Source: Halalkalirubrum salinum (GTDB taxonomy: Archaea; Halobacteriota; Halobacteria; Halobacteriales; Haloferacaceae). Taken from it: a stretch of DNA of 44,395 bases. The DNA is taken from NCBI RefSeq assembly GCF_005543295.1, contig NZ_SRSG01000057.1, forward strand, positions 1 through 44,395, written 5' to 3'. Below the pieces are notes generated by a model. That model was given only the letters and a program-made list of their open reading frames with translations. It had not been told where the DNA came from and searched no databases. The position numbers and the translations under genes are program-made. Positions 1,697-9,206 of the stretch are shown one piece after another (the stretch's first letter is position 1; every line of letters starts with the position of its first letter).

Positions 1697-2446
1697 TCAC
1701 CCGCCGAGGTACAGCTTCGAAACCTCGGGGTTGTCAAGCAACTCGTCGGCGACGTCCTCATAGCGGACGGTGCCCTGATCGAGCACGTAGCCGCGATCGG
1801 AGATTGACAATCCCTCCCGGGCATTCTGTTCGACCATCAGGATTGAGGTCCCGAGATCGTTGACCGTCCTGACGTTTTTAAACACGTCCTCGACGATCGA
1901 CGGCGCAAGCCCCGCGCTTGGCTCGTCGATTAGAAGCACATCTGGCTCCATCATCAACGCTCGCGAGAACGCGAGTACCTGCCGTTGGCCCCCAGAGAGC
2001 GTCCGTGCCTTTGCGGCCTGCTTCTCTTCGAGAATCGGGAACCGATCATATAGTTCCGCGATTCGATCGTCGACGCCGTCCTCGCGAGCGACGCCGCCCA
2101 TCTGGAGGTTCTCTTCGATCGACAGCGATGGAAACACGTTGTCCGTCTGGGGAACGTAGCCGACACCCATCCGCACGAGGTCTGCAGGTTCAGTCCCGCC
2201 AATCTCTTCGCCCCGAAGCGTGACCGAACCGGTCCACGGTTCGAGCAGCCCGAAGGCGGTCTTCAGCACCGTCGATTTGCCCGCGCCGTTCGGGCCGATC
2301 AAACAGACGATCTCACCCGCTTCGAGATGGAGGTTCAGATCGTCGAGGACCTGTATCTCTCCGTAGCCGCTGTCGACACCCGACAGCGACAACACCGGCT
2401 CTTTGGTCGGTTCTCGGTGAACGATCGTCGCGTCGTCTGCGCTCAT
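1697..2446 (-). CDS. livF: Branched-chain amino acid ABC transporter ATPase LivF
   Basis: Second nucleotide-binding subunit of a HAAT-type importer, last gene of the livJHMGF operon. It shows Walker A GPNGAGKST, signature LSGGQRQ, Walker B VLLIDEPSAGL and the H-loop region MVEQNAREG. The 249 aa length and the C-terminal Asp/Leu-rich tail are typical for LivF. Its ATG overlaps the end of livG by 4 nt, which indicates translational coupling. Partners are LivG (ATPase), LivH and LivM (permeases) and the frame-broken LivJ lipoprotein. The family carries branched-chain amino acids, other amino acids, amides or urea, so the substrate is not fixed by sequence. Confidence 0.95.
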   Translation of the reverse strand: MSADDATIVHREPTKEPVLSLSGVDSGYGEIQVLDDLNLHLEAGEIVCLIGPNGAGKSTVLKTAFGLLEPWTGSVTLRGEEIGGTEPADLVRMGVGYVPQTDNVFPSLSIEENLQMGGVAREDGVDDRIAELYDRFPILEEKQAAKARTLSGGQRQVLAFSRALMMEPDVLLIDEPSAGLAPSIVEDVFKNVRTVNDLGTSILMVEQNAREGLSISDRGYVLDQGTVRYEDVADELLDNPEVSKLYLGG

Positions 2447-3255
2447 GGGCTCCCTCCGAGATACGCCTCGATAACGCGTTCGTCTGATCTGACCGTCTCT
2501 GGCGTATCTTCCATCAATACTCGTCCCTGATCCAATACGATGATCGGATCGGCAATGCGCATGATGAAGCTCATGTCGTGTTCGATGATCAGGAAGGTCT
2601 GTCCCTCCTCGTTGAGCTCTTCGATGAACCCGGCGAGCTTCTTTGCGAGCGTCGGATTCACCCCTGCAACTGGCTCATCGAGCAGCAGAACGTCTGGCTC
2701 GGCCATCATCGCACGAGCCATCTCTACGAGTTTGAGCTGCCCGCCAGACAGCTCCGTCGAGGGTGCGTTTGCGAGATGATCGATCTCGAATCGTTCTAAC
2801 ATTCGCTGGGCATCCTCAAGGTTCGCGGTTTCCTCGGTTCTGACCTTCGAACCGCCGAAAAACAGCGGGAGAATTGACTCGCCTGATTGGCCCTGTGGAC
2901 CGACCAACATCGCCTCCCGAACGGTCATGCCTTCGAGACGCCGCGGCGTCTGGAACGTCCGCATTAGCCCTGATCGGGCGATTTCATAGGGTTTCATCCC
3001 CGAGACCTCGGTGTCGTTGACGTACACCGATCCCGAATCTAGCTCGTAGAAGCCCGAAATGAGGTTGAACAGTGTCGATTTACCTGCACCGTTCGGGCCG
3101 ATCATTCCGGTGATCGATCCGCGCTCGACGGCGATCGACACGTCATCGGTTGCGGTGAGCCCACCGAAAGACTTCTTGAGCGACTCCGTTCGTAACACAA
3201 CATCGTCTTTGTCCAGATCTGCGCCGTCGTACGTCAATGAGAGTTCTGCGCTCAT
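2443..3255 (-). CDS. livG: Branched-chain amino acid ABC transporter ATPase LivG
   Basis: First nucleotide-binding subunit of the Liv-type importer (270 aa). Motifs in order: Walker A GPNGAGKST, signature LSGGQLKL, Walker B VLLLDEPVAGVNP, and the H-loop IIEHDMSFIM. The Gly-Val-Asn-Pro after Walker B is typical of LivG and helps separate it from LivF. It overlaps livM and livF by 4 nt at each end, so the four membrane and ATPase genes form a tight translationally coupled run. Confidence 0.95.
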   Translation of the reverse strand: MSAELSLTYDGADLDKDDVVLRTESLKKSFGGLTATDDVSIAVERGSITGMIGPNGAGKSTLFNLISGFYELDSGSVYVNDTEVSGMKPYEIARSGLMRTFQTPRRLEGMTVREAMLVGPQGQSGESILPLFFGGSKVRTEETANLEDAQRMLERFEIDHLANAPSTELSGGQLKLVEMARAMMAEPDVLLLDEPVAGVNPTLAKKLAGFIEELNEEGQTFLIIEHDMSFIMRIADPIIVLDQGRVLMEDTPETVRSDERVIEAYLGGSP

Positions 3256-4442
3256 TCGTCAACACCTCGCTGTTCACGGGTCGCCTGCCGTTCGCGCGAT
3301 TGAGTATCATCTGACGCTGCGCCCGGCCAAATCAGTTCCTCTTTCGGCGGCAAGAGCCCCTGCGGTCGGAACCGGATGACGAAGATGATTAATAGCCCGA
3401 CTAACAGAAGCCTGACAGCCGAGACATTGAGCGTAATTCCCGGGATCGCTTCGAAGAGTGCAACGACGAGATCAATCTCGTTGAGGAACCGCGTCCCCTC
3501 CAAGATGGCAACGATCGTCACTGCACCGATAATCGATCCCCGATCGCTGCCGGTCCCGCCGAGGATGAGCGCGACCCAGACGTAGAACGTCTGCAGTGGT
3601 TCGAGTTCACCAGGATCGAGATACTGGAAGGCGTACATGTAGAACCAGCCCGCAACGGCCATCAGTACACAGCCGATCACGAACGCCTGCATCTTCATCA
3701 TGTACGTGTTCTTTCCGAGCGCCTTCGCGAGGTCCTCGTCACCGCGGATCGTTCTGACGACCCGTCCCCACGGCGAGCGGTGAATCCGACGAACGAGCAG
3801 ATACCCGACGAAGAGCATCCCCAAGATGACGATCGTGTTCCGCGCGGTTCCTATAGACGCCTCCGCTGAGAGCAGGCGGACGACTGGCTCAACCGGGAGC
3901 CACCCAAATAGCTCGGGCGCGCCGCTGATCCCTCTGCTGCCGGCGGTCCACTCTCGTTCGTTCAAGAACAACAGCCGGATAACTTCCGCAAATCCGAGAC
4001 TGGCGATCGCGAGGTAGTCCGCCCGAAGTCGCAGTGTCGGGATACCGATGAGCACCGCGACGATCGCGGCAACGACGATTGCGACGACGAGCGCGATGAC
4101 AGGCGACAAGAGGATATCGTGTGGCGATCCCGGTGAGGTGAGAAGCGCCGCAGCGTACGCGCCGATCCCCCAGAAGGCGATGACGCTGAAGTTGATGAGC
4201 CCGGCATATCCCCACTGGATATTGAGCCCGACGACCATGAAGCCGTACATGCCCACGAGTCCGAGGAGATACATCCCATAGTTGAGGCTCAATACGCCCA
4301 CGCCCACCAGCAGCAAGAGGAACAAGACGAACACGCCGACTGCGGTGAGATCTAGCACGGAAACCCCGAGGTTGCCCGGTTCGATCCGGAGTCGATCGAG
4401 GCGATCTGTCAATCCAATATCGTCTGATTGCTGTTCGCTCAT
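3252..4442 (-). CDS. livM: Branched-chain amino acid ABC transporter permease LivM
   Basis: Membrane permease (396 aa) of the Liv-type importer. An N-terminal cytoplasmic stretch of about 30 residues is followed by roughly ten membrane segments. The core segment WGYAGLINFSVIAFWGIGAYAAA carries the family hallmark G-x-x-N-F-x-x-x-x-F-x-G-x-G-A-Y. The EAA-type loop that docks the ATPase is visible around WGRVVRTIRGDEDLAKALGKN. The C-terminus has an extra charged tail rich in Arg, Glu and Gln. It overlaps livH and livG by 4 nt. Confidence 0.93.
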   Translation of the reverse strand: MSEQQSDDIGLTDRLDRLRIEPGNLGVSVLDLTAVGVFVLFLLLLVGVGVLSLNYGMYLLGLVGMYGFMVVGLNIQWGYAGLINFSVIAFWGIGAYAAALLTSPGSPHDILLSPVIALVVAIVVAAIVAVLIGIPTLRLRADYLAIASLGFAEVIRLLFLNEREWTAGSRGISGAPELFGWLPVEPVVRLLSAEASIGTARNTIVILGMLFVGYLLVRRIHRSPWGRVVRTIRGDEDLAKALGKNTYMMKMQAFVIGCVLMAVAGWFYMYAFQYLDPGELEPLQTFYVWVALILGGTGSDRGSIIGAVTIVAILEGTRFLNEIDLVVALFEAIPGITLNVSAVRLLLVGLLIIFVIRFRPQGLLPPKEELIWPGAASDDTQSRERQATREQRGVDE

Positions 4443-5398
4443 GTTGTATCATCCCCCAAGATACCGGTCGGTCTAACGAGCAAGATCGCGATCATGACAA
4501 TAAACGCAACCGCAGCGTTGTACTGGGTTCCGACGAACGGGAGCGCAGCAGTCATTTCGAAGGCCATGCCGATCGTGAACCCGCCGAGCATCGCGCCGTA
4601 GACGCTGCCGATTCCGCCGAGAATGACCGCAGAGAAGATCAATAACAACAGTTCGAATCCCATTCGCGGACGAATCAGTGTATCCAGGCCGAGGAACACC
4701 CCGCCGGCGGCGGCCAGCACCGCACCAATCACCCACATCGCGAGGATAATCTCGCCGGTTCGGATGCCGCTCACCCGTGCAAGATCGGCGTTGTCTGCCG
4801 TCGCGCGCATCTTCCGTCCAAGCGTCGTGTACTGTAACAGAAGGTGCAAGCCAACGACGAGGATCGCGGTTATTGCCACTGTCACAACATCTCGCGGCGT
4901 GATCGCGACGCCCAGCGACTCGCTGACCCAGTCGATCCGCCCACTTCGCCCGATGTCGTACGTCTGTGGATCCGAGCCGAACCCGAGGATAAGCAGCGCC
5001 CGGTATGCGAGCGCGACTCCGATGCTCGTAATGAGGAGTTCGATCGACCCCGTGTCGAGCGGCCGATACACCAGATACTCCGTGATTACGACGAGAATCG
5101 CCGCTGCAGCCATACCGACGACTAGTGCGACAAAGAACCAGATCGGAAGGCTAAACAGGGTCGTCTCTAAGATCGCGGCGATCGATGGCGACACAGACAC
5201 AGCTGTTTCGGGATTGAGCAGGTAGTCATTGACGCCGATCGCAACGACGAGCGCGCCGAATGCGCCCACGGCCATCGTATCACCGTGAGCGAAGTTTGCG
5301 AAGTTGCCGATGCTGTACACCAACGAGAGTCCGATCGATCCCAAAACGATCACGCTGCTGTAGACGATCCCGTTGACTACGAGTTGTAGTGTAGACAC
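4439..5398 (-). CDS. livH: Branched-chain amino acid ABC transporter permease LivH
   Basis: Membrane permease (319 aa) that pairs with LivM. The N-terminus GIVYSSVIVLGSIGLSLVYSIGNFANFAHGD is diagnostic of LivH. The ATPase-docking loop is visible around TTLGRKMRATADNADLARVSGI. It follows livJ by 43 nt, the largest gap in the operon. That gap may allow separate expression levels for the abundant binding protein and the membrane complex. Confidence 0.93.
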   Translation of the reverse strand: MSTLQLVVNGIVYSSVIVLGSIGLSLVYSIGNFANFAHGDTMAVGAFGALVVAIGVNDYLLNPETAVSVSPSIAAILETTLFSLPIWFFVALVVGMAAAAILVVITEYLVYRPLDTGSIELLITSIGVALAYRALLILGFGSDPQTYDIGRSGRIDWVSESLGVAITPRDVVTVAITAILVVGLHLLLQYTTLGRKMRATADNADLARVSGIRTGEIILAMWVIGAVLAAAGGVFLGLDTLIRPRMGFELLLLIFSAVILGGIGSVYGAMLGGFTIGMAFEMTAALPFVGTQYNAAVAFIVMIAILLVRPTGILGDDTT

Positions 5399-5441: not shown

Positions 5442-6548
5442 TTAGGTCGTGAGGTAGTCACCGAAGACGTACTCGTGGTCCTCAACGGTGTAAATTTGGT
5501 AGAATCCCGGCGGATCGCCGTTCTCATCGAGGTCGACCGGTCCGCTGACGCCCTCGTAGTTCAGATCTGATGGGCTCCCACCGTCGTCAAGGATTGCTTT
5601 CGCTTCCTCGAATGTAAACACATCTTCGCCATCTGGACGAGTCACATCACGGACAACCTCCGTTAGCGCCTCGGCGGTGAACTCGTCTGCGGCTTCGATC
5701 GCGATCGCCGCGATGTGTAACGCATCGTAGGTGTATGCCGACCAGACCGTTGGCTCCTGGTCGAATTCCTCTTCGAATTGATCCTGGTACGACTGGTAGT
5801 TCTCCTGATCTTCGGGTGCGCTCTCGGTGATGCCCTTGAAACCGTCTTGGCTGCCGGGTTCGGTGTTTTCGAGGATCGAATCGGCGATCGTCGATTCCGC
5901 ACCGTAGTATGCAACATCCTCGTTGTAGCCCGCATCGAAGGCCTGGTTGACCATCACCGAGACCTCGTCAGCGTACGTGAAAAACACCCACGCGTCCGCC
6001 TCGGTGTCGGCCATCTCTGAAAGCTCTCCGCGATACGAGGAGCCTTCCGGTTCGTGGGGTACGATGTATCGGAGATCGCCCTCGTACTCTTCTTCGAACA
6101 CCGTCGACAGCGAGTCACGGTAGTCGTTGTTGATCCACGTGACCGCACAGGATTCGTGGCCGTCTTCGTACACCATCTCCGCGATGGCCGCACCTTTTGC
6201 CGCACCGCTTGGACTGGTCCGAAGGAGATCTGGCTCGGTACTCAACACCGCGCCGGTACTGTTTTGGCTGATGTGGACAACGCCAGCCTCCTTTGTGACA
6301 CTGTTGTGAATTGCCATACTCGCTCCGGAGCCAACAGTGCCGATGAGCAGCGGTACCTCGTCTTGATTGACGAGTTTCTGTGCTGCGTTAACCCCGCCTT
6401 GATTCGACGTCTCATCGTCCTCGAGAAGCACTTCGAGTTCGTCTCCGTCGCCAGTACCAACCGCGTTGATGTCCGCCAAGGCGAGTGCCATCCCACGTTC
6501 GTTCCGTTCGCCGTACGGCGCGAGTGAGCCGGTGCGAGAGTCGATCAT
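5442..6548 (-). CDS. livJ: Liv-type ABC transporter substrate-binding protein, main reading frame
   Basis: Periplasmic-binding-protein type 1 domain (368 aa in this frame) that should capture the substrate outside the cell and pass it to LivHM. Recognisable parts are SRTGSLAPYGERNERGMALA at the N-terminus, TVGSGASMAIHNSVTKEAGV in the middle, and SAYTYDALHIAAIAIEAADE near the end. The first conserved strand (TYEIGMIDSRTG) is only complete when read upstream of this ATG. The true N-terminus, with signal peptide and lipobox, lies in another frame (6545-6766). The ATG at 6548 is therefore probably not the natural start. First gene of the liv operon. Confidence 0.85.
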   Translation of the reverse strand: MIDSRTGSLAPYGERNERGMALALADINAVGTGDGDELEVLLEDDETSNQGGVNAAQKLVNQDEVPLLIGTVGSGASMAIHNSVTKEAGVVHISQNSTGAVLSTEPDLLRTSPSGAAKGAAIAEMVYEDGHESCAVTWINNDYRDSLSTVFEEEYEGDLRYIVPHEPEGSSYRGELSEMADTEADAWVFFTYADEVSVMVNQAFDAGYNEDVAYYGAESTIADSILENTEPGSQDGFKGITESAPEDQENYQSYQDQFEEEFDQEPTVWSAYTYDALHIAAIAIEAADEFTAEALTEVVRDVTRPDGEDVFTFEEAKAILDDGGSPSDLNYEGVSGPVDLDENGDPPGFYQIYTVEDHEYVFGDYLTT

Positions 6549-6766
6549 TCCGATTTCGTAGGTCGTATCGTCATCACCGTTGCCGTTTCCGCCATTGCCG
6601 TTCCCGCCATCATCGTCGCCATTACCGTCGTCACCGCCGTTGCCACCGTTGCCACCGTTTCCGTTGCCACACCTTCGAGACAGCCGGCGATCGACAGCGC
6701 AAACGTGGTTCCTGCTGCCGAGAGCATTCGACGGCGGTTCACTGACTTCGTGTCATCATTAGACAT
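6545..6766 (-). pseudogene. livJ: Signal peptide and lipobox fragment of LivJ, out of frame
   Basis: The ATG at 6766 opens a haloarchaeal Tat lipoprotein signal: NRRRML twin-arginine motif, a hydrophobic stretch, then the lipobox SIAGC. Right after the Cys the frame slips. In this frame the linker reads as Val/Ala/Thr and stops at 6545. In the other frame the same DNA encodes a Gly/Asn/Asp-rich linker (GNGNGGNGGNGGDDGN) that runs into the binding domain. From this ATG to the downstream ATG is 218 nt, one short of a multiple of three. The simplest reading is a one-base loss in the repetitive linker. A sequencing error or a programmed slip are alternatives. Confidence 0.75.
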
Positions 6767-6795: not shown

Positions 6796-6804
6796 TCGAT
6801 ATAT
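6796..6804 (-). promoter_or_regulatory. Probable promoter of the liv operon
   Basis: On the minus strand CATATATCG is a TATA-like box about 30 nt before the livJ ATG. A second AT-rich stretch at 6781-6790 (TTTATAATG on the minus strand) is closer to the start and less well placed. The CCATGG palindrome at 6808-6825 lies immediately upstream of the first box, the usual place for an archaeal activator. Confidence 0.4.
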
Positions 6805-6807
6805 GTG

Positions 6808-6825
6808 CCCCCGTCCATGGGAGGG
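6808..6825. promoter_or_regulatory. CCATGG-centred operator-like palindrome, site 1 (liv promoter)
   Basis: CCC-GT-CCATGG-GA-GGG, symmetric around 6817/6818 and about 51 nt upstream of the livJ ATG. The same 16-bp arrangement recurs at 7634-7649 and 7565-7580. The shared pattern is CCY-GT-CCATGG-NA-SGG. This is an inferred binding site; the likely reader is the HTH_10 protein encoded next door. Confidence 0.5.
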
Positions 6826-6863
6826 TTCCGCCGTCTGGTGGTCTCGAGCAACGTACGAGCGCA

Positions 6864-7598
6864 CTAAGGGTCGAGAAGCTTTGCTTCGGCTTTTCGCAGG
6901 TGTTCGAGGAGCGTTGTCTTCGAGATATCGAGATCGGCAGCCAGTTCGCGCGTTGATGTCTCTCGGGGCCAGTTGTAATATCCCTCCTCGCGTGCGTGTT
7001 CAAATGCCTCCCGCTGGGCTGGCGTGAGCGAGTCGACCCGCTGTTTCCGACTTGACGACGTTGTGGTGTCGGCGGTCATGATCGAAGTGACAGTCACCTC
7101 AGCTGGAGCGTGTTCGCGCACCTGATCCAGAGACGGTTCGATCTCGCTGCGATCGCCCATGAAACACACTTGCCATTCTTCGGAGCCATCTTCAATCCGG
7201 ACGGGTTCGCTGTGGACAAAGCCGTTTTCTAAAAGCGTTGGACACACCATATCGTCGGGATCGTACTGCAAAAAGAACTCCCGGACGATGTTACCCGGAG
7301 CGTTTCTCGCCCGACCGAAGCGTTCCTGGAGTTCGTGGACCTCACCAGATCGATCGGAATCACGGATAATATCCAACAGCTGCTCGACCTCCTCGGTCGT
7401 CTCACCAAACGCAGTAAACAATCCGTTCACCTTCGTCTCGTTCTTTGGGGCACTCTTTGGGGTATTGTACACCGCGTGGGCCAAAATGCCGCCGTCCACC
7501 TGTTCTGTCGCCTCGATCGCCCAGCAGTTTGGGTGCCATAGATCAAGCGTCAATCGTGTCTGGCCCTGTCCATGGAACGGTTCCTGCGCCTTGCTCAT
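6864..7598 (-). CDS. HTH_10 (bacterio-opsin activator-like) transcription regulator
   Basis: DNA-binding regulator of 244 aa. The C-terminus is an HTH_10 domain: SLTPAQREAFEHAREEGYYNWPRETSTRELAADLDISKTTLLEHLRKAE, the fold found in bacterio-opsin activator and DmsR-type haloarchaeal regulators. The N-terminal about 150 residues (beginning RLTLDLWHPNCWAIEATE) resemble the sensor-like domain seen in HVO_0513-type proteins. I chose the ATG at 7598. It has a TATA-like ATTTGTATG about 25 nt upstream, and the longer open frame would run into the divergent aldehyde dehydrogenase promoter. A TTG inside RLTLDL is a less likely alternative. It sits between the liv operon and the aldehyde dehydrogenase and probably controls both. 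Confidence 0.85.
   Translation of the reverse strand: MSKAQEPFHGQGQTRLTLDLWHPNCWAIEATEQVDGGILAHAVYNTPKSAPKNETKVNGLFTAFGETTEEVEQLLDIIRDSDRSGEVHELQERFGRARNAPGNIVREFFLQYDPDDMVCPTLLENGFVHSEPVRIEDGSEEWQVCFMGDRSEIEPSLDQVREHAPAEVTVTSIMTADTTTSSSRKQRVDSLTPAQREAFEHAREEGYYNWPRETSTRELAADLDISKTTLLEHLRKAEAKLLDP
7565..7580. promoter_or_regulatory. CCATGG-centred operator-like palindrome, site 3 (start of regulator gene)
   Basis: CCT-GT-CCATGG-AA-CGG, matching the layout of the two neighbouring sites. It falls in the first dozen codons of the regulator gene, where a bound protein could block transcription and give feedback control. It is the weakest match of the three. Confidence 0.35.
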
Positions 7599-7631
7599 GT
7601 GTGGTGTGAAGTCGTCCCGCATACAAATCTG

Positions 7632-7651
7632 TTCCCGTCCATGGTAGGGAA
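7632..7651. promoter_or_regulatory. CCATGG-centred operator-like palindrome, site 2 (divergent promoter)
   Basis: TTCCC-GT-CCATGG-TA-GGGAA, the most symmetric copy. It sits almost exactly midway between two divergent starts: 43 nt from the regulator ATG (7598) and 44 nt from the aldehyde dehydrogenase ATG (7686). Each promoter shows an ATTTGT-containing AT-rich box between the site and its start. The geometry suits simultaneous control of both genes. Confidence 0.5.
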
Positions 7652-7685
7652 TGGGCATTTGTCTCTGACACGAAAACGAATGGGT

Positions 7686-9206
7686 ATGGCAGAAACCTTC
7701 ACACACTACATCGCAGGAGAATGGGACGACGGCGACGGCACAGAGACATTCGAGAGTGCGAACCCAGCGACGGGCGAGACGCTCGGGACGTTCGAACGTG
7801 GAACTGAATCTGACATCGATCGGGCAGTTGCTGCCGCCGAGGATGCGTTCGAGGAGTGGCGATCGCTCTCGTACATCGACCGCGCGGAATACCTGTGGGA
7901 CATCTACCACGAACTTCGCGATCGGACCGACGAACTCGGTGAGATCGTCACCAAAGAGTGCGGTAAAGAGATCTCGGAGGGTCGGGCCGACGTGATCGAG
8001 GCATACCACATGGTCGAGTGGGCCGCCGGCGACGCCCGCCATCCACAGGGCGACGTCGTCCCCTCAGAGATCCCGAGCAAGGACGCATACATGCGCCGAA
8101 AGCCTCGCGGCGTCGTCGGCTGTATCACACCGTGGAACTTCCCGGTTGCGATCCCGTTTTGGCACATGGCGGTCACGCTCGTCCACGGCAACACCGTCGT
8201 CTGGAAGCCCGCTGAACAGACACCGTGGTGCGGACAGATCATCGCCGAAATGTTCGATGACGCCGGGATCCCTGAGGGCGTGTTCAATATGGTTCAGGGC
8301 TTCGGCGACGCGGGCGCGTCGATCGTCGATGATGAGCGCATCGAGACGGTGCTTTTCACCGGTTCCGCAGAAGTCGGCCACGAGGTCGCCGCAAAAGCTG
8401 CCCAGCAGGGCAACAAGCTCGCTGCCTGTGAGATGGGCGGCAAAAACGGGATCGTGATCACCGCAGAAGCCGATATGGACACCGCTGTCCACTCGGCGGT
8501 GATGTCCTCATTTAAAACGACCGGCCAGCGCTGTGTGTCCTCCGAACGACTCATCGTGCACACGGACGTCTACGACGAGTTCAAAGCGCGGTTCGTCGAG
8601 GTCGCCTCAAACGTCGCGGTCGGCGATCCACTCGATGAGAACACGTTCATGGGGCCGCTCATCGAGCCCGAACACAAAGAGAAGGTCCGCTCGTACAACG
8701 ATCTCGCCCGCGAGGAGGATGTAAACGTCCTCGTCGATCGGACCGACCTCGATCCAGCAGAGATCCCTGACGGCCACGAGGATGGCAACTGGATTGGACC
8801 ATTCGTTTACGAGGCCGATCCGTACGCAGACCTCCGTTGTACTCACGAGGAGGTATTCGGCCCCCACGTCGCGCTGTTGGAGTACGACGGCGACATCGAG
8901 GAGGCTGTCGAGATCCACAACGACACCGAATACGGACTCGCAGGCGCGATTATTTCTGAGGATTACCGAGAGATAAATTACTACCGCGATCGCGCCGAGA
9001 TTGGTCTTGCCTACGGGAACTTACCGTGCATCGGTGCGGAGGTGCAGTTACCATTCGGCGGCGTCAAAAAGTCCGGCAATGGCTACCCATCCGCGCGTGA
9101 GGTGATCGAAGCCGTCACCGAACGAACCGCCTGGACGCTCAACAACTCCTACGAGATCGAGATGGCCCAGGGGCTGTCCGCAGACATCAAAACGAAAGAC
9201 GAGTAG
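7686..9206 (+). CDS. NAD(P)-dependent aldehyde dehydrogenase
   Basis: Aldehyde dehydrogenase superfamily enzyme (506 aa) oxidising an aldehyde to the acid with NAD(P)+. Visible motifs: PWNFPVAIPFWHMA at about residue 150, the cofactor-binding FTGSAEVG, the general base Glu in ACEMGGKNG (about 249), and the catalytic Cys in GQRCVSSERL (about 283). The C-terminal PFGGVKKSGNGYPSARE is also typical. The GQRC context resembles semialdehyde dehydrogenases of the ALDH7 type, but the substrate is not determined. Two ATGs lie 6 nt apart (7680, 7686). Divergent from an HTH_10 regulator and near an amino-acid importer, which points to amino acid or amine catabolism (inference). Confidence 0.92.
   Translation: MAETFTHYIAGEWDDGDGTETFESANPATGETLGTFERGTESDIDRAVAAAEDAFEEWRSLSYIDRAEYLWDIYHELRDRTDELGEIVTKECGKEISEGRADVIEAYHMVEWAAGDARHPQGDVVPSEIPSKDAYMRRKPRGVVGCITPWNFPVAIPFWHMAVTLVHGNTVVWKPAEQTPWCGQIIAEMFDDAGIPEGVFNMVQGFGDAGASIVDDERIETVLFTGSAEVGHEVAAKAAQQGNKLAACEMGGKNGIVITAEADMDTAVHSAVMSSFKTTGQRCVSSERLIVHTDVYDEFKARFVEVASNVAVGDPLDENTFMGPLIEPEHKEKVRSYNDLAREEDVNVLVDRTDLDPAEIPDGHEDGNWIGPFVYEADPYADLRCTHEEVFGPHVALLEYDGDIEEAVEIHNDTEYGLAGAIISEDYREINYYRDRAEIGLAYGNLPCIGAEVQLPFGGVKKSGNGYPSAREVIEAVTERTAWTLNNSYEIEMAQGLSADIKTKDE

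Follow-up and report, generated by a model that had tools for sequence, protein, structure and literature searches.

Genes and palindromes at the locus

The window is the whole analyzed stretch of 44,395 nt of contig NZ_SRSG01000057.1 from Halalkalirubrum salinum. An HTH_10 regulator of 244 aa (P0001) is encoded at 6864..7598 on the minus strand, and an aldehyde dehydrogenase (ALDH) of 506 aa (P0002; Pfam Aldedh, 471 bits) is encoded divergently at 7686..9206 on the plus strand. The genes of a Liv-type importer are also located on the minus strand: a substrate-binding lipoprotein (5442..6766; Pfam Peripla_BP_6), a LivH-like permease (4439..5398; an ORF with a homologous gene in relatives), a LivM-like permease (3252..4442; an ORF assigned by gene order), a LivG-like ATPase (2443..3255; an ORF that contains the Walker A and signature motifs), and a LivF/UrtE-like ATPase (1697..2446; NCBIfam LivF and UrtE matches, both under the curated cut-offs). 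The binding-protein gene has a 1-nt frameshift near 6665-6680, directly after the lipobox, in this assembly. The gene of the sister species is intact, and the frameshift is either an assembly error or a broken gene.

The HTH_10 regulator has an N-terminal alpha/beta domain and a C-terminal HTH. Residues 191-242 match Pfam HTH_10 (PF04967) with 72 bits (cut-off 23.1). In the AF2 model (mean pLDDT 75), sigma region 4 and LuxR-type domains can be aligned to residues ~183-244, with moderate Z scores of 5-6.7. A Foldseek search with the N-terminal domain gave one good match, Ta1207 of Thermoplasma (Z 10.0, 3.2 A over 143 residues), which names no ligand. No PAS or GAF domain was found in the 244 aa at E values up to 1.

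The original prediction described three palindromes centred on CCATGG. The first, operator 1 (CCCGTCCATGGGAGGG), is located in the liv promoter. Its 16-mer occupies 6810..6825, not 6808-6825 as first given (no strand is assigned to any of the three sites). The dyad, 6817|6818, precedes the start codon of the binding-protein gene (ATG, 6766-6764) by 51 nt, and the sequence is unchanged in the sister species. Operator 2 (CCCGTCCATGGTAGGG, 7634..7649, dyad 7641|7642; 20-nt form TTCCCGTCCATGGTAGGGAA, 7632-7651) is common to the divergent HTH_10 and ALDH promoters. From the dyad it is 43 nt to the start codon of HTH_10 (ATG, 7598) and 44 nt to that of ALDH (ATG, 7686), exactly the distances proposed; if ALDH begins at an alternative ATG at 7680, the latter distance is 38 nt. 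Site 3 (CCTGTCCATGGAACGG, 7565..7580) was also quoted correctly and is located within the first HTH_10 codons. Beside the operators are the TATA-like boxes ATATAT of the liv promoter (6799..6804, minus strand; positioned with respect to the dyad as it is in relatives), TTTGTA of the HTH_10 gene (7622..7627, minus strand; assigned by position), and CATTTG of the ALDH gene (7656..7661, plus strand).

In the 3.42 Mb genome, the predicted 16-bp pattern is matched exactly three times, and every match is at this locus. As the pattern was derived from these three sites, this number is by itself post hoc, and the independent test is whether the sites are conserved in other genomes. CCATGG alone occurs 7 times in the window (7.6 expected) and is not enriched. 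When two mismatches were allowed, the number of genome matches was equal to that of the reversed control. The one-mismatch genome match and one two-mismatch match on contig C17 were rejected, as they lie at corresponding codons of two paralogous hydantoinase-type genes and are therefore coding. Most of the other two-mismatch matches examined are inside long open frames; the match on contig C5 is a promoter at an HTH_10 paralog locus. On contig C17 (L013), the two paralogous hydantoinase-B-like genes are located on either side of a CapA-like gene, and a hydantoinase-A-like gene is near.

Conservation of the palindrome in related haloarchaea

Related haloarchaea have the palindrome, with the consensus CCCGACCATGGTCGGG, in front of HTH_10, of ALDH, and of the gene for the liv binding protein. 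In most cases 44 bp separate the dyad from the start, and a TATA-like box follows 15-18 bp downstream. The CCATGG palindrome of the original prediction was upheld, and its consensus CCY-GT-CCATGG-NA-SGG is replaced by this fuller palindrome. All 105 matches of the core CCnnCCATGGnnGG in 81 loci fell in promoter windows, which make up 7.5% of the DNA; for three control patterns, the numbers of matches were 1, 0, and 4. An analysis made independently of the predicted motif returned ATGGTCGG and CATGGTCG, each present in 56 of the 61 intergenic regions between HTH_10 and ALDH and absent from all 61 coding controls of equal length. The pattern CCSWMCCATGGKWSGG, whose columns were misplaced relative to the palindrome, gave no matches, and a CCGACCATGGTCGG match in L187 was rejected as an operator, since it is within coding sequence.

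A site was present in all 60 divergent HTH_10/ALDH loci, with the strict pattern in 55. The strict pattern was also found in 32 of 36 liv promoters, and the remaining four had 1-4 mismatches. In ALDH promoters, 47 of 55 sites had the dyad 43-45 bp before the start. Downstream of it, the ALDH promoters of relatives have TTT at +16 to +18, with which the CATTTG box of the window agrees, as well as a G-rich stretch, and their liv promoters have TTnA at +15 to +18. Conservation at a fixed position spans about 17 named genera, and all six copies of the perfect 16-mer in 292 genomes of the class are at this locus. Two sites are present in wide intergenic regions (L087, L089, L092, L097, L114, L158), the first ~48 bp from HTH_10 and the second ~44 bp from ALDH; in short regions, including that of the window, a single site is common to both promoters. 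On this sequence evidence, operators 1 and 2 are confirmed as real conserved regulatory elements, and their proposed position just upstream of the TATA-like boxes, where activators bind, is borne out by the conserved spacing of ~44 bp. Leaderless transcripts make up 72% of the protein-coding transcripts of Haloferax volcanii (PMC4983044). Because they predominate there, the start codon probably lies close to the transcription start, and the dyad would then be at about -44 and the TATA box at about -27.

The ALDH promoters of Natronococcus and Natrialba carry the variant GACCATGATCGGTGG (L086, L088, L090, L103, L109, L112). No obvious site was found in the HTH_10 promoters of these two genera.

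Site 3 had been proposed to belong to the same set. It is without the C at -6 and the G at +6, which nearly all promoter sites keep. Its matrix score is 3 bits, compared with 17 and 23 bits for sites 1 and 2, on a matrix that demands these two bases by construction. In the sister species it is CCTGCCCATGGAACGG, a synonymous change, and no equivalent was found in relatives beyond the genus. Because two conserved positions differ, the change in the sister is synonymous, and the site is absent elsewhere, it is probably a coding coincidence outside the system, judged by its sequence, and an autoregulatory operator at this place was rejected. The predicted link between the liv importer, the HTH_10 gene, and ALDH is strongly supported.

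Association of the palindrome with HTH_10

HTH_10 orthologs with 55-95% identity are present in about 70 of the 148 family genomes. They also occur in 80 named loci of many genera, most with the CCATGG palindrome in the HTH_10/ALDH and liv promoter regions. ALDH orthologs without a linked HTH_10 gene lacked the site in all loci examined, including those of the same genera; the sole apparent exception proved to have an adjoining HTH_10 gene. Family-wide, CCGWCCATGGWCGG was found in 46 of 71 genomes with an HTH_10 ortholog and in 8 of 77 without (Fisher p 4e-12, in a test that ignores shared ancestry), and its reversed control was found in 3 of 148. Fragmented assemblies or matches within coding sequence account for some of the eight genomes with CCGWCCATGGWCGG and no detected ortholog. 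Units of liv and proline dehydrogenase genes that are separated from HTH_10 retain the site (L196, L197). Because the site is conserved, keeps a fixed position, co-occurs with HTH_10, and is present as a separate copy for each promoter where space allows, the HTH_10 protein very probably reads the palindrome.

In one genome without an HTH_10 ortholog (L185 and L186, G026:C1), two distant copies of CCCGACCATGGTCGGC have the same immediate flanks and are perhaps part of a repeated element.

Probable link to proline utilization

Most relatives have a further gene in this cluster, a proline dehydrogenase gene (PF01619) that separates HTH_10 from liv. Of its 45 promoters, 44 contain the half-site TGGTCGGG, which in 31 of them is exactly 44 bp from the start. 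The ALDH reached no equivalog among the curated P5C dehydrogenase models (TIGR01237: 302.5 bits, cut-off 659.65). Because proline dehydrogenase is linked in relatives and its half-site keeps the same position, we believe that the ALDH is probably a P5C dehydrogenase and that the locus is probably a proline-utilization regulon. The single substrate that the original prediction had taken up and oxidized is thus probably proline.

In place of the left palindrome half, the proline dehydrogenase promoters (L085-L164) have a conserved A-rich stretch of the GAAA type adjoining the intact half-site.

The genus of the window has no clustered proline dehydrogenase, and its only one is unlinked. At 2350-2365 of L084 (G000:C10), 44 bp before the start of this gene, there is an imperfect operator, CCCGACCAAAGACGGG, and likewise in the sister species. 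A site of this type was absent from 19 unlinked homologs elsewhere. The sequence is suggestive of an operator for the unlinked gene. The idea that this gene is the relocated cluster gene was rejected; other genomes have both types, and it is therefore the other paralog.

Proposed regulation and alternative explanations

We believe, with a probability of roughly 0.8, that sites 1 and 2 serve as operators in a proline-utilization regulon and are read by the neighboring HTH_10 protein. The HTH_10 protein, probably as a dimer, would bind CCCGACCATGGTCGGG. With the dyad ~44 bp upstream of the starts (51 at liv), the site would stop just short of the BRE/TATA region, and the bound protein would help bring in TFB/TBP and RNA polymerase. 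One site would drive both divergent genes, HTH_10 (autoregulation) and P5C dehydrogenase, and the second would drive the importer. In relatives, the proline dehydrogenase promoter would enter the regulon through the half-site at the same position. The signal would be proline or P5C, and the importer would carry proline. The trigger may be nitrogen limitation instead of proline, because the H. volcanii enzymes rise on alanine compared with ammonium.

The palindrome could also be the operator of this regulon with HTH_10 as a repressor and the substrate as the derepressing signal. The autoregulatory placement fits repressors too; however, a dyad ~44 bp from the start with a site that ends before BRE/TATA is the usual position of an activator, while simple repression would predict overlap with the TATA box or the start site. 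The known HTH_10 regulators Bat, NarO, and DmsR are also described as activators, and we consider repression unlikely. It is less probable still that a different regulator, such as an Lrp-type general nitrogen regulator, binds the palindrome and that the HTH_10 gene is merely a target. Expression of the H. volcanii enzymes does depend on the nitrogen source, and for other induced genes an Lrp homolog has been suggested (PMC6801745). However, the motif in that study is AAAGACTAART, which is unrelated, and ALDH orthologs in genomes without HTH_10 lack the site. The restriction of the perfect 16-mer to this locus and the recurrence of the element beside an HTH_10 paralog also argue for HTH_10 as the reader. 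Finally, a chance cluster or a general promoter feature is scarcely credible for the three matches taken together: the unenriched CCATGG and the two-mismatch count equal to the control would suit it, but the fixed-position conservation across genera and the exclusive promoter placement of the core refute it for sites 1 and 2, and it is the best reading for site 3 alone.

Comparison with known systems

HTH_10 proteins are among the commonest haloarchaeal regulators, and target sites are known for few of them. Here, a precise operator, a fixed promoter position, target genes, and a likely substrate are combined across many genera. Bat, the activator of the bop cluster in Halobacterium salinarum, has the same HTH_10-type HTH and reads a short UAS common to a few co-regulated promoters. 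Unlike the protein studied here, Bat has PAS and GAF sensor domains, and its regulon concerns light and oxygen, not amino-acid catabolism. The haloarchaeal NarO and DmsR are HTH_10 activators of catabolic genes without PAS/GAF domains. However, they serve anaerobic respiration, and the motif of denitrification promoters, CGAAYATDKTYG, differs from CCCGACCATGGTCGGG; a NarO/DmsR-type site was not what the target promoters carried. The bacterial proline-use regulators PutR, PruR, and PutA likewise control proline dehydrogenase and P5C dehydrogenase genes, but they belong to other protein families and none is an HTH_10 protein.

The same enzyme pair is found in H. volcanii, where HVO_1189-HVO_1191 are P5C dehydrogenase, an unnamed gene, and proline dehydrogenase. 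These genes span 3,247 bp (PMC6801745), compared with ~3,249 bp for ALDH, HTH_10, and proline dehydrogenase in L057. HVO_1190 is not named as a regulator in that study, and it is probably the ortholog of the HTH_10 protein described here, which would place the ortholog in a genetic model. In H. volcanii, the proline enzymes are induced on alanine compared with ammonium, with the signal described as unclear and the regulator unnamed (PMC6801745). The HTH_10 protein is a candidate for the regulator of the induced proline dehydrogenase and P5C dehydrogenase genes that PMC6801745 left open. The literature, as far as it was covered, gave no account of a haloarchaeal HTH_10 proline regulator, of HVO_1190, or of this operator, and the regulator-operator pair is likely, although not certainly, new.

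A paralogous HTH_10 gene has genes for a proline racemase (PF05544) and for an SNF symporter (PF00209) as neighbors, and similar sites were found in 5 of 7 such loci, 44-53 bp upstream of the HTH_10 paralog, the symporter, or a binding protein. We tentatively suggest, at somewhat less than even odds, that the two paralogs (one for proline, one beside racemase and symporter) read a near-identical CCATGG palindrome and thereby couple or compete over proline-family amino acids, with proline dehydrogenase included through the TATA-proximal half-site. If true, this would define an operator code for an entire HTH_10 clade. At the paralog locus of the window's own genome (L079, G000:C5:249500-260000), the site is CCCGACCATGGACGCG, 49 bp before the symporter.
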